From the NCBI GenBank assembly GCA_946407725.1, contig CAMJPM010000025.1, forward strand, positions 1-37,956: a stretch of DNA of 37,956 nt, given 5' to 3'. The notes under the pieces are model-generated. The model was not told the origin of the DNA, searched no databases, and saw nothing but the letters and a program-made list of their open reading frames with translations. The position numbers and the translations under genes are program-made. The number at the start of each line of letters is the position of its first letter. Position 1 is the first letter of the stretch. This document shows positions 15,721 through 35,533 of this stretch, one piece after another. Source of the DNA: an uncultured Lachnospiraceae bacterium (GTDB taxonomy: Bacteria; Bacillota; Clostridia; Lachnospirales; Lachnospiraceae).

Positions 15721-15933
15721 CGATTATTTGTAACTATTCAGAACCCCCTGTGATATGACCATATTTTTCAACGAAAACTTGTTTTCGATTGGAAATATGG
15801 TCATATCACAGGGCGGTAACGATTAGTTACCGCCCCCACACCTTCGCAAAAAATGATTTCTTTGATTATTTTTAATCAAAAATCATTTTTTGCGAAGGTG
15901 CGGTGTGGGGGTTCTGAATAGTTACGATTATTT
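15721..15933. mobile_element. MITE-like element with three internal hairpins and target duplication
   Basis: A 196-bp element at 15730-15925 has perfect 19-bp inverted ends (15730-15748, GTAACTATTCAGAACCCCC, and 15907-15925). GATTATTT flanks both sides (15722-15729 and 15926-15933; nine bases if the neighbouring C is counted), consistent with a target-site duplication. Inside are three perfect hairpins: a 21-bp stem 15746-15766/15793-15813 with its own inner stem, a 10-bp stem 15811-15820/15826-15835, and a 21-bp stem 15839-15859/15880-15900 with an inner TTTGATTA/TAATCAAA. No coding capacity is seen. The right target copy abuts the stop codon of the diguanylate cyclase gene. Confidence 0.82.
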
Positions 15934-31819: not shown

Positions 31820-31891
31820 GTGTAGTAATTGTCACGGCGGCATAGGGACGTGCCGCAGGTTTTGAAGTCACATGGATGTCAAGTACATAAT

Positions 31892-34800
31892 ATGCATATC
31901 AATTTTCAGACAGACCCGCAGAACACAGCAGAAAAACTTAAGACAACGGTGAATAACAGAGCCCTCAGTGCGTATGGCGCAGCAAAGGGTCCGGGAGTTG
32001 TCATGGATTTAGAAAAAAACGCCGCTCACGGTTTCAGAGGTGTACAGGGAAATGACAAAAAGAACACCGAAAAAACCAGCATTTTAGATGAAGCGGAATC
32101 CTTTGACGCTAAAAATTCCCATAACTACATGGCTGTCATGTCTAATACCATGTCAGCTAAGGACTTTCAGGAAATGAAGGAAGAGGGCTACCACCCAGGA
32201 AGAATGAGCGAGGCAGAGGCCATAACCGGGCTTGACCGGATTAAGGTGATCCTTTCCCGGGCCGGTGTAGATGTGGCGGGATTTACCGATACCGTTGATA
32301 AGGAGACTATAAAAGAGATCACCGGAAGCTATGCCGGGGCAGAGGGATCCCGGGATATAACGGTGGCAGAATTTATGTCCGGGGATAAAACGGTGTCAGA
32401 ACTTACGTCCCGAGATATAACGGTGTCAGAGCCGACGTCCGGGGATAAAACGGTGTCAGAGCCGACGTCCGGGGATAAAACGGTGTCAGAGCTTACGTCC
32501 GGGGATAAAACGGTGTCAGAGCTTACGTCCGGGGATAAAACGGTGTCAGAGCTTATGTCCGGAGATAAAACAGTGTCAGAGCTTATGTCCGGAGATATAA
32601 CGATGTCAGAGCCGACGTCTGGAGATATAACGGTGTCAGAGCTCACGTCCGGGGATGAAACGGCTTTGAAGGATTTTGTCACAAAGGCATTTGAGAAACG
32701 GGACCTTCCGGCTACGGATGACAATATAAAGGATGCACTTAGAGCCTTAAACATGGCGTCTGAGATAGAGGTGCCGGACAGCGGAAGTATAGAAGTGCTG
32801 CTTTCCAATCAGAAAGAGCCTACTATAGAGAACGTGTATTTTGCAGAACACTCCGGAGCAGGTAAAGGGTCAGGACAGGCCGGGGGCTATTTTGCTTCGG
32901 GAGAAAAGGGTTACTATGCGGAAATAGCGGATAATGAGGATCTGCAGAGCATAGAAAAACAGATAGATGATGTGATCGAAAGAGCCGGATTTAAGCCGGA
33001 CAGGAGTCTCCGGGAGGATGCGAAAAATCTGATAAAGTCCGGGATTGCACTAAATGAAGAAAATCTTACGCTATATGAGGATATAAAGTGTATTGAATTT
33101 CCCCTTAAGGCCGGGGATCTGATGGCGGAGATCGCGGAAGCGGTTTCAAAGGGCGAAAGTGCAGCTTCGGCAAATCTTATCCGGGGCTATAACAGGATAA
33201 AGAATGAGAGGGTCTTAAACGAGACCAGGCTAAAAATGAATACGGAGGTCAACCGTGCCCTTAAAGCTGACAACGGTTTTTCACTGGATCAGGAGACTCT
33301 GTCGGAAAAGGTGGATGAGCTCAAGATAAAGGAAAGAGCTTTTTACAGGGCAGCGTTTGTGAGTGGCCGGAAGGAAGAGGGCTTTGACGTTGAAGAGAGC
33401 ATAAGCCTTGCGGAAGAGACTCTGTTTAAGGTCAGGGAAATAAAGGAGATGCCTTTAGCTCTCGTTGGAAGATTTTCTTCAGCGGAGGCTTTTACGGTAA
33501 ATGATGTTTATGAAGCCGGAAACCTGATGAAGGAACGCTTTGAAGAGGCAAATGCCACCTATGAGGCGGTTGGAACGTCTGTCCGTTCAGACCTGGGGGA
33601 CAGGCTGGAGGATGCCTTCAAAAATGTTCCCTCTCTCCTTAAGGAGCTGGAAATAAAGGAGACCTTTGAAAACTTAAGAGCCGTAAGGATCCTTGGATAC
33701 AACAGCATGGATATTACAGAGGAAAATATCGAGAGGGTAAAAGACGCTGATCAGACCATAAATACATTGATCAACCGCCTTACCGGTTCTGCCGTGGTAT
33801 CCCTAATCAGGGAAGGGGTTAATCCTCTTGAGACCAGCGCCAATGAGCTTATTAAAAAGATCACGGATATGGAAAATGTCAGTGAGGAAAACGAGAAATT
33901 CAGCGAATATCTTTTTAAGCTGGAGAGAAATAATGAGATAAGCGAAGACGAGGCGGAGTCCTATATCGGTATCTACAGGCTGATACGGCAGATAGAAAAA
34001 TCCGACGGCGCAGTGATCGGTGCCCTTGTAAATAACGGCCGGGAGCTTTCTCTTAAAAATCTGCTCTCAGAGCTTAGGACCAAGGGCAGGAAGCACATGG
34101 ATTTCAGTATAGATGATAAATTTGGCGGCGTTTCCGCTAAAGAGGGGTCTCCTGACAACAGGAGGATAGACACCCAGATCATGACGGCATTCCGGAAGGA
34201 GCCCGGCAGCCTGTCCGAAAACCAATTCGCCCAATCTGCACGCCCCCACTTTGCGGGTGAAACCGATGCGAATTTGGGTCACGTAGCCCGCTACGCTTCC
34301 CAAATTCGATCGGCTCCCCCACAAATTGGTGACGCCCATCTTGGGCAAAGCGTTTTCGGACAGTCTGCCGGAGAGCGGGACAATACCGGAAATGGGGGTC
34401 AGGCCTATTTCGGAAACGAAGATAAGGAAGCAGAAGGGCAGCAGCCCGGCAACGGCAGTGGCAGCGGGAGCGAGGAGATCCGGGATCCGCAGGTATCTTT
34501 TAATGAAAACGTGCTGCATGAGATATATGACAGACTTGATCCGGAGGCGTTGAGAAATGTTCCCGGGCTTTCAGGGAAAACCACCCTTGAGGAACTGTTG
34601 TCCGCTCTTCGTCAGAATATGCGCGGAGAGGGCTTTAAGGAAAATCCGGGAACCCTGCCGGAGGCAGATGCTCTCTACAACGAAGAGATGCTGGAAGAGA
34701 TCCGGGAAGCGGCTTCAAAAGAAGAAGAGGTCTATGCGCAGCTCCTTCGTTTCGGAGTTGAGATCACCCCTGAAAACGTCAATGCAATGGATGCCCTGAT

Positions 34801-35533
34801 GAATGACCGGGGAGCACTGTTTATGGCGCTTTCAAACCTCATGAACGGGAGTTTGTCGGAAAAGATCAGGGTTCGTTCTGGAAAGATCCTTGAGAGCATG
34901 GACAGGGAGGAGGATGAGGCAGAGGATCCCGGGGATGCGGTAAAAGAAGCTTATGCGGACATGATGGAAGAAACGCGGGAAATACTTAAGGAAGCATCGG
35001 AAGAGGCGGGACGTTACATAGACTTAAAGAGCCTTAAAAATATAAACCGGCAGCTTACAGTGGCAGCATCCCTTTCAAATGAGGAAAACTATGAGATCCC
35101 CATGGAGCTTAACGGAAGGCTTACCTCGGTGAATGTCAAGTTCATCAGGGGGACGCTGGAAGCTAAGGCCGCAGTTTCCTTTGAAACGGAAAGCTACGGA
35201 AAGGTCTACGGAGAATTCACCCTTAATAACGAAAGTATCAGCGGTTTTGTCACTGCGTCAAAGGATGAGGGAATAAATCAGTTAAAGGAAAGGGCAGAGG
35301 GATTTATTTCCATGTTAGGGGATAACGGAATAAAGACAGGGGACATTGTTTTTGAAAAGTCTTATAAAACAGATATTAACAGAATCCCGGTTGCTGCCGA
35401 TAAAGATAGTGTAGGTCACTTTAAGACCCCGTCAGGGATGGACGGGAGTAGCGAAAAAACAGGCAAGGATGCCGAAAAAAACCCAGCTGTTCTCTATAAA
35501 ACAGCAAAAATCTTTTTACAGTCGGTAAGGTAA
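31892..35533 (+). CDS. Large flagellar protein with FliK-like C-terminus
   Basis: About 1213 residues from the ATG at 31892 (MHINFQTDPQNTAEKLK). That start is chosen because flagellar exported proteins often begin like this; it has only a weak GGATG upstream, and in-frame TTG 31829 or GTG 31850 are possible. The body is Glu/Lys-rich helix, with a ten-unit repeat near 155-253 and an in-frame palindromic insert at about 771-827. Near 1065-1165, PMELNGRLTSVNVKFIRG, then GKVYGEFTLNNESISGFV and LGDNGIKTGDI, resembles the FliK hook-length control C-terminal domain. It may belong to a Lachnospiraceae family of large proteins near flagellin genes. Flagellin follows 12 bases after the stop. Confidence 0.72.
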   Translation: MHINFQTDPQNTAEKLKTTVNNRALSAYGAAKGPGVVMDLEKNAAHGFRGVQGNDKKNTEKTSILDEAESFDAKNSHNYMAVMSNTMSAKDFQEMKEEGYHPGRMSEAEAITGLDRIKVILSRAGVDVAGFTDTVDKETIKEITGSYAGAEGSRDITVAEFMSGDKTVSELTSRDITVSEPTSGDKTVSEPTSGDKTVSELTSGDKTVSELTSGDKTVSELMSGDKTVSELMSGDITMSEPTSGDITVSELTSGDETALKDFVTKAFEKRDLPATDDNIKDALRALNMASEIEVPDSGSIEVLLSNQKEPTIENVYFAEHSGAGKGSGQAGGYFASGEKGYYAEIADNEDLQSIEKQIDDVIERAGFKPDRSLREDAKNLIKSGIALNEENLTLYEDIKCIEFPLKAGDLMAEIAEAVSKGESAASANLIRGYNRIKNERVLNETRLKMNTEVNRALKADNGFSLDQETLSEKVDELKIKERAFYRAAFVSGRKEEGFDVEESISLAEETLFKVREIKEMPLALVGRFSSAEAFTVNDVYEAGNLMKERFEEANATYEAVGTSVRSDLGDRLEDAFKNVPSLLKELEIKETFENLRAVRILGYNSMDITEENIERVKDADQTINTLINRLTGSAVVSLIREGVNPLETSANELIKKITDMENVSEENEKFSEYLFKLERNNEISEDEAESYIGIYRLIRQIEKSDGAVIGALVNNGRELSLKNLLSELRTKGRKHMDFSIDDKFGGVSAKEGSPDNRRIDTQIMTAFRKEPGSLSENQFAQSARPHFAGETDANLGHVARYASQIRSAPPQIGDAHLGQSVFGQSAGERDNTGNGGQAYFGNEDKEAEGQQPGNGSGSGSEEIRDPQVSFNENVLHEIYDRLDPEALRNVPGLSGKTTLEELLSALRQNMRGEGFKENPGTLPEADALYNEEMLEEIREAASKEEEVYAQLLRFGVEITPENVNAMDALMNDRGALFMALSNLMNGSLSEKIRVRSGKILESMDREEDEAEDPGDAVKEAYADMMEETREILKEASEEAGRYIDLKSLKNINRQLTVAASLSNEENYEIPMELNGRLTSVNVKFIRGTLEAKAAVSFETESYGKVYGEFTLNNESISGFVTASKDEGINQLKERAEGFISMLGDNGIKTGDIVFEKSYKTDINRIPVAADKDSVGHFKTPSGMDGSSEKTGKDAEKNPAVLYKTAKIFLQSVR
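32351..32650 (+). repeat. Ten tandem 30-bp units coding a decapeptide
   Basis: Ten consecutive 30-bp units with no spacers encode variants of GDKTVSELTS (E/L/P/M/I substitutions: SELMS, SEPTS, GDITVSE). Most differ by one to three bases, so the array is recent. A partial eleventh unit (GDETALK) follows. The unit length is a multiple of three, so copy changes keep the frame. Confidence 0.95.
34203..34371. repeat. In-frame nested palindromic element inside the FliK-like gene
   Basis: The outer arms (34203-34222 and 34352-34371) are inverted with 19 of 20 bases matching; the core is CTGTCCGAAAAC/GTTTTCGGACAG. GCCCAA (34229-34234)/TTGGGC (34341-34346) extends the stem. A central helix CCGAT-g-CGAATTTGGG (34263-34278) pairs with CCCAAATTCG-ATCGG (34299-34313), closed by CGTAGC-cc-GCTACG (34282-34295). 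The frame stays open and encodes a Gln/Ala/His/Gly segment (AQSARPHF, GHVARYASQI, GQSVFGQSAG). Five CAA and a CGA codon occur here, while the rest of the gene uses CAG almost only. This looks like a palindromic element inserted in frame. Confidence 0.8.

Follow-up and report, generated by a model that had tools for sequence, protein, structure and literature searches.

How does a palindrome come to lie inside a gene whose reading frame it leaves intact? We address this question for a DUF6240 gene (31892–35533, plus strand) in a stretch of 37,956 nucleotides from an uncultured Lachnospiraceae bacterium (contig CAMJPM010000025.1, the whole of which we call the window). A preliminary description of the sequence had placed a palindromic element within an uninterrupted frame of this gene and had called it domesticated. 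We find that the plus-strand frame is indeed unbroken from a TTG at 31829 to 35533 and runs through the element; the ATG at 31892 is the likelier start and is the one used in our reading of the gene.

The palindrome, its host gene and the empty site

The segment 34203–34371 (169 bases) consists of a 161-bp palindrome (34207–34367, plus strand) with a CCGG at both sides (34203–34206 and 34368–34371). Its outer arms, 34203–34222 and 34352–34371, pair at 19 of 20 positions when recomputed, the value given in the preliminary description, and this strand folds into a single long hairpin (−90.3 kcal/mol, z is −8.7) that none of 200 shuffles equals. The inner helix and hairpin tip (34263–34313, plus strand), defined by the fold and by an alignment of copies, end in a closing stem CGTAG/CTACG with the loop at 34287–34290. 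The whole window contains four centers with arms pairing at 19 of 20 or better within 250 bp, compared with 0, 0, and 0 in three shuffled windows; three of them lie at 15.78–15.87 kb in another repeat, and the fourth is the element at 34203–34371. An Rfam search with 601 bases matched no family. The terminal inverted repeats read CAGCCTGTCCGAAAAC on the left (34207–34222, plus strand) and CAGACTGTCCGAAAAC on the right (34352–34367, minus strand). With its 161 bp, its lack of a transposase, and its 16-bp ends differing by one mismatch, the element has the size and the ends of a MITE. Together with one CCGG it amounts to 165 bp, or 55 codons, and encodes the peptide GSLSENQFAQSARP...GQSVFGQSA.

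A second palindromic repeat is present in the window at 15725–15930 and has 24-nt outer arms around two hairpins. Copies of this repeat are found elsewhere in the same genome (L021 98%, L010 90%), and a part-copy in L009 adjoins a copy of the 161-bp element.

In the host gene, the DUF6240 domain (PF19753) is encoded by 33215–34066 (plus strand, residues 463–746 of the TTG-started ORF), and a C-terminal domain resembling the substrate-switch domains of PscP and FliK in Foldseek searches, with weak E-values, is encoded by 35078–35359 (plus strand). The gene contains a second length-adding feature, a tandem array of 10.5 units of 30 bp (32348–32663, plus strand), which is mostly skipped in the matches of the two nearest orthologues (residues 178–266 for G015 and 175–262 for G007). 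The ORF has 1234 codons compared with 1053 and 1055 in the open frames of these two orthologues. A flagellin gene follows next downstream, and a FliS gene is also located in the neighborhood. The reverse strand across the element is open as well, as had been described: a 150-residue ORF (34067–34519, minus strand) spans it, which is probably spurious and stays open through a palindrome that can be read on either strand.

The insert corresponds to residues 793–847, or to 772–826 when counted from the ATG, in good agreement with the previously given limits of about 771–827. The sudden switch to CAA, CGA, and TTG codons and to a Gln/Ala/Gly composition that had been described there holds in part. 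CAA accounts for 5 of the 55 codons inside the insert and for 1 of 1179 outside, and the insert is richer in Gln (10.9% versus 2.0% in the rest of the host protein) and Ala (16.4% versus 8.0%) and contains no Lys (7.1% elsewhere). Gly is barely increased (10.9% versus 7.7%), and CGA and TTG occur only once each among the 55 codons.

Comparison with related genomes reveals the site without its insert. Matches to the host protein are present in all 48 genomes of the genus, 47 besides our own, and we aligned the orthologues from 29 of these other genomes (loci L172–L200). The segment is absent in all 29, and among the genomes searched, with one genome per species, the DUF6240 insertion is seen in our own genome only. 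In the two nearest orthologues (74% and 73% identity), AFRKEP is directly followed by GEKDNN and GERDNN, respectively; in our protein, 55 additional residues separate AFRKEP from GERDNT. At the DNA level, these orthologues (L172 and L173) read GAGCCCGGGGAAA with a single CCGG, compared with GAGC-CCGG, the 161 bp, and CCGG-AGAG in the window. The two CCGG copies thus form a target-site duplication, and relatives show the site unoccupied, as expected for a MITE.

Dispersed copies and an IS1182-type element with the same ends

The preliminary description had suggested a search for further copies, and these exist both in genes and between genes. Neither half of the outcome that it had named as contrary to its reading, a segment common to all orthologues at ordinary divergence and a lack of other copies, is observed. 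In the same genome, copies or pieces are dispersed over 15 distinct places, as is typical of a MITE (two pieces on C61 were merged, and reverse self-matches of the palindrome were left out). Five are full-length, on C25 (the window element), C46 (98% identical), C116, C6, and C79, and the other ten are shortened. By DNA similarity, 6 of 61 genomes match (our own, 36 of its genus, and 24 others), our own included, all from one genus. Full copies with 89–91% identity occur in four other genomes of the genus; those in G025, G028, and G031 have the same geometry with an outermost G instead of C. Target duplications are imperfect, with at least one changed base, in C46 and C79 of our own genome and in G023. 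A pattern search found exact arms in 5 of 48 genus genomes, and both searches together yield 7 genomes of the genus, of which G029 matches by an arm only. Across genome contigs, among which our own record may not be included, an arm-pattern scan returned 97 stretches, mostly from metagenome-assembled genomes (MAGs), many of them from Lachnospiraceae, Clostridia, and Spirochaetia; we read the surroundings of 80 and 120 bases past the arm for the other 17. Some of the 97 are likely chance matches, and others are the arms of other MITEs or of insertion sequences.

Half-length copies form a class of their own. In the seven that we aligned (on C8, C3, C62, and C1, two in G063, and one in G023), the left half is retained and the sequence breaks off close to the hairpin tip. 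These seven are at L013, L014, L015, L016, L106, L041, and L111, and those in L015 and L111 are directly followed by CCGG. At ∼2557–2665 of L015, the right end of one copy, a single CCGG, and the left end of another follow each other, as though the target copy of one element had served as the insertion site for the other. Elements in other MAGs (L099, L145, and L150) have the same ends and a different interior, and the one in L099 is also 161 bp long.

One locus links the ends to a transposon family. L083 carries an element of ∼2.07 kb whose 593-residue protein matches the IS1182 transposase profile NF033551 (271.2 bits compared with a cut-off of 270). Its left end is CAGACTGTCCGAAAAC, identical in 16 of 16 positions to the right end of the window element and one base off its left end; its right end has one mismatch, and GGGG is found on both sides. 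L083 was found by searching for the arm, and the shared ends are therefore partly a product of selection; the informative point is that a transposase adjoins them. A similar element at L120 has AGGG and AGGA outside. Upon inspection by eye, 7 of 25 arm loci show such a transposase or its start (L069, L071, L083, L095, L117, L120, and L122), with the profile test applied to L083 only.

In our own assembly (162 contigs), we detected neither an IS1182 transposase nor a PF13751 match. The shared ends of an IS1182-derived MITE are found in L083, and a partner insertion sequence in the same genome, which is usual and not obligatory, was not detected in these contigs. Four IS1182-like copies are present in G062, and the loci retrieved for them do not show these ends. 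Six further genomes of the genus gave IS1182-like matches, all weaker: G012 (1.8e-37) has a degraded copy whose right end is similar, and G007, G015, G063, G064, and G071 have matches between 2e-8 and 3e-5. Among the loci read for ends (L209–L214, L216, L221, and L223), the G012 locus is the only one with a similar end.

Reading frames, host genes and DUF6783

In the window copy, both strands can be read through without a stop and share one codon register, so that the copy can fuse to a host frame in either orientation. Among the nine full copies of the CCGG type, the frame GSLSENQF..FGQSA is open in seven, the exceptions being C6 and C79, each with a 1-bp deletion and a stop. On the reverse strand, the frame GRLSENALPKM..FGQAA, which has the same codon boundaries, is open in six (stops in C116, C6, and C79), and a third frame, reverse and in another register, in three (C25, C46, and G023).

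Like the Rickettsia palindromic elements, this element is found in frame, with an open frame of its own, in unrelated genes. In our genome, in-frame pieces lie in a PseG gene (TIGR03590, 198 bits), in an MBOAT protein, and, in reverse orientation, in an RNase_H_2 protein; the piece in an NlpC/P60 protein on C62 is less sure, as a plausible start codon lies downstream of the element. The piece is missing from the PseG orthologues L229 and L230 (L227 and L228 are uninformative, the wrong ORF having been taken) and from the nearest MBOAT orthologues (L257–L262), the loop varying in length in others (4 of the 29 MBOAT rows, L269, L275, L282, and L284, are wrong ORFs). Our survey of relatives (20 rows, L067 and L034 being the same sequence) located further hosts. 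G031 has a full copy in an Acyl_transf_3 ORF that is truncated at the contig end, and G025 has one in a 455-residue ORF for which Pfam gives nothing significant. In G063, one half-copy forms the end of a TruA-type ORF and another lies in an ORF rich in Gln, Pro, and Tyr. G023 has pieces in CbiD and in a CobD-like aminotransferase, both of which fall where the alignment to the nearest solved structure leaves a stretch out. A VTC gene in G031 also carries a copy; its start is uncertain, with a plausible start codon downstream of the element. In MAG RGIG9300, an element with the same length and ends, whose interior has no blastn match to the window element, lies in a guanylate-kinase-like ORF cut by the contig end. 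All genes named here read the piece in one or the other of the codon-matched frames, and the remaining copies are in no convincing gene. A match in CbiJ of G029 was dropped from the count, being a 20-bp arm only and in another frame.

A search of 397 genomes of the family with the G025 copy returned DNA matches in 24, our own included. Five of these (G305, G498, G531, G546, and G701) were set aside, with matches of only 19–25 bp that we take to resemble the 3′ end of tmRNA, and 18 others remain. Over longer alignments, the relatives share 68–76% DNA identity with the G025 copy, and in most of them the ends are of the AGCGTGTTTGAAAA type, the interior is conserved, and the flanking bases are CTAG or close to it. 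CTAG is found on both sides in 9 of 21 rows of a first set, of which one row is a false call on a CCGG copy and two are the same place. We then sampled 100 regions from seven genomes, chosen for full coverage among the matches listed in 13 genomes, which contain 102 full copies. CTAG is present on both sides in 60 of the 102, and the length with both targets is 166 bases in 100 of them. The arithmetic of this subfamily (158+4=162=54 codons) is again a multiple of three. When target bases are counted, one codon-matched frame has no stop in 79 of 100 copies and the other in 58, and the remaining four frames are closed in every copy. The TAG in the target runs into two of the four, and leaving the target bases out opens one of them (f1) in 44 copies of 100. 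The consensus hairpin of the CTAG type (52 pairs, 88 distinct copies) is 89.6% paired with 13 compensated pairs, compared with 33–46% and 2–10 compensated pairs for slid versions. RNAalifold returned only 11 pairs for a mixed alignment of CCGG and CTAG copies, in which the right arms look misaligned between the subfamilies.

We find at least 60 open codons on both sides in one frame in 12 of the 102 CTAG copies, a measure that would miss insertions near gene ends; by eye, two are in convincing genes. One of these two, in L428, is in frame in a gene with a LysR substrate domain. The Pfam family PF20574 (DUF6783) covers residues 121–175 of this ORF (L428:1236–1931), and the element encodes residues 118–171. 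The DUF6783 profile moreover matches both strands of a CTAG element (L312:1500–1661; E-values are 5e-25 and 5e-29, with 87 and 100 bits compared with a gathering score of 22.8). The peptide of the window element has no match to this profile on either strand, and single-base gaps in its alignment with the CTAG type shift the left half to another frame. An NCBIfam search with four element peptides gave no match, and a literature search for "DUF6783" returned no papers. Judged from these profile matches, DUF6783 is probably a translated palindromic transposable element and not a protein family, at least for these members.

The second of the two CTAG copies in convincing genes, at L408, is in a closed register; it breaks a cytidine-deaminase-like gene (named by eye) with three stops and is the failed counterpart of the in-frame insertions. 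The copy at L363 lies between the ends of two genes (by eye). Long ORFs over L414, L422, and L443 were not counted, as by eye they look like intergenic copies joined to flanking frames.

Origin and role of the insert

Taken together, we consider it very probable that the element is a palindromic MITE of the IS1182 type and a frame-neutral passenger in this gene. An IS1182-family transposase acting in trans would recognize the 16-bp ends, and insertion at a CCGG palindrome would duplicate its 4 bp, consistent with the ends and the duplication seen here. By the geometry of this copy, with 161+4 divisible by three and both strands open in register, insertion at NCC/GGN in either orientation would add 55 residues and not break the gene. 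Most insertions that hit another register or a folded core would disappear, and linker insertions would persist, in line with the one broken gene in a relative. Here, the insert would be carried as a passenger, neutral or nearly so, in a disordered linker that joins two domains, and the in-frame copies in other genes of the genus would be accounted for in the same way. An AlphaFold model of a fragment, computed from 18 sequences (mean pLDDT is 64, pTM is 0.38), has pLDDT <50 over ORF residues 790–888, and the insert lies wholly inside this region, between a helical domain and the C-terminal β-domain. The linker is thus predicted to be disordered, low pLDDT being a sign of disorder and not proof.

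There is next to no chance that the segment is an ordinary low-complexity linker of the host, palindromic by accident: the neighboring linker does vary in length among orthologues, but the copies elsewhere, including the 98% identical one at another locus of the same genome and the full copies in four other genomes, together with the exact target duplication, rule this out. That the element is a palindrome of the REP/RAYT type, or another one moved by a tyrosine (HUH) transposase, is highly improbable. Palindromic repeats read through in genes are described for Opitutus, Thioalkalivibrio, and Rickettsia as intragenic REPs (PMC3733652), which our intragenic and intergenic copies resemble; however, these are described as 20–40-bp units or dimers, one of the two groups being tied to tyrosine transposases (PMC3733652), whereas our element has 4-bp target duplications and shares its ends with an IS1182 element.

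Domestication, in which the inserted peptide would have a selected host function that keeps its frame open, we regard as very unlikely. The two open frames of the CTAG copies, with the other four closed, could be taken in its favor, as could the middle codon position of the nine full CCGG-type copies, which varies least (6 of 53 sites compared with 14 and 15 of 54), a signal that rests on nine related copies. Stop-making variants, however, occur at the random rate in the codon-matched register (5 versus 4.2 expected forward and 9 versus 7.2 reverse, from 154 distinct variants in 100 related CTAG copies), few CTAG copies have the long open flanks described above, the host genes are unrelated, and C6 and C79 are themselves disrupted. 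The CTAG frame looks inherited and not guarded. The term "domesticated" in the preliminary description is accordingly unsupported for an insert seen in one of the genomes searched, within a predicted disordered linker, in a family in which CTAG-type stops are not selected against. Our analysis is best read as describing a frame-neutral passenger, comparable with the Rickettsia palindromic elements and with an identifiable transposon type.

The setting of the gene raises another reading, in which the insert and the 10-residue tandem array lengthen a FliK-like ruler and hence the hook, with the MITE supplying ruler length. The C-terminal domain has PscP (5cuk) as its top Foldseek hit (probability is 0.98, E is 0.07) and FliK (2rrl) at rank 3 (0.84 and 0.22), the gene adjoins those for flagellin and FliS, the insert lies between the helical and C-terminal domains, and the ORF is longer than in the two nearest orthologues. 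The Foldseek E-values, however, are weak (0.07 to 0.23, none passing 0.001), an unrelated protein ranks between PscP and FliK, and the Flg_hook profile match to the host protein stays below its cut-off (13.0 bits compared with 29.8, E is 0.093). By predicted fold, the host protein looks weakly FliK-like, and DUF6240 proteins may act as hook-length rulers in this group; that the insert serves as ruler length is unlikely. The same doubt applies to a wider version, by which palindromic transposons across the family would enter genes either way as a ready-made peptide and here would have lengthened a FliK-like ruler and changed the length of the hook.

The frame-neutral MITE has several known parallels. 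Rickettsia palindromic elements, with which the preliminary description had compared the locus, are described as palindromes of ∼150 bp that occur in intergenic DNA and also, in frame, within genes unrelated to one another, each having an open frame that encodes a conserved peptide (PMC10969869). The comparison is apt in effect and not in type: by that description the effect is the same, whereas our element belongs to another phylum and is a MITE whose IS1182-type ends, target duplication, and transposon family can be identified. It resembles IS1182 insertion sequences in its terminal repeats and in the 4-bp repeats, as seen at the ends of the L083 element, and differs in the absence of a transposase. 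IS1272, counted in IS1182 by a review cited in PMC5678879, is described there as replacing stem-loops without duplication, in contrast to the CCGG duplication in the window. The ERIC/RU elements are described as MITE-like, 103–168 bp long, and with open frames in annotated enterobacterial genes (PMC2759123); by this description they are alike, in different hosts, and the abstract of PMC2759123 does not mention a both-strand codon register. A literature search of titles and abstract openings returned no description of our element. In-frame MITEs or REPs are thus already known from other hosts, as described in PMC2759123 and PMC3733652; as far as the literature was searched, the host group, the insertion sequence type and its target, the geometry that is frame-neutral on both strands, seen in two subfamilies, and the nature of DUF6783 are new.

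With this element, the phenomenon known from Rickettsia gains a counterpart in a different phylum, in which transposon type, target site, and empty site can all be read, and how selfish DNA adds segments to proteins becomes testable with ordinary tools. DUF6783 as a translated element would affect how genomes of gut bacteria are annotated. If the host protein is a hook-length ruler, as it may be, the effect of inserted length would be directly measurable.
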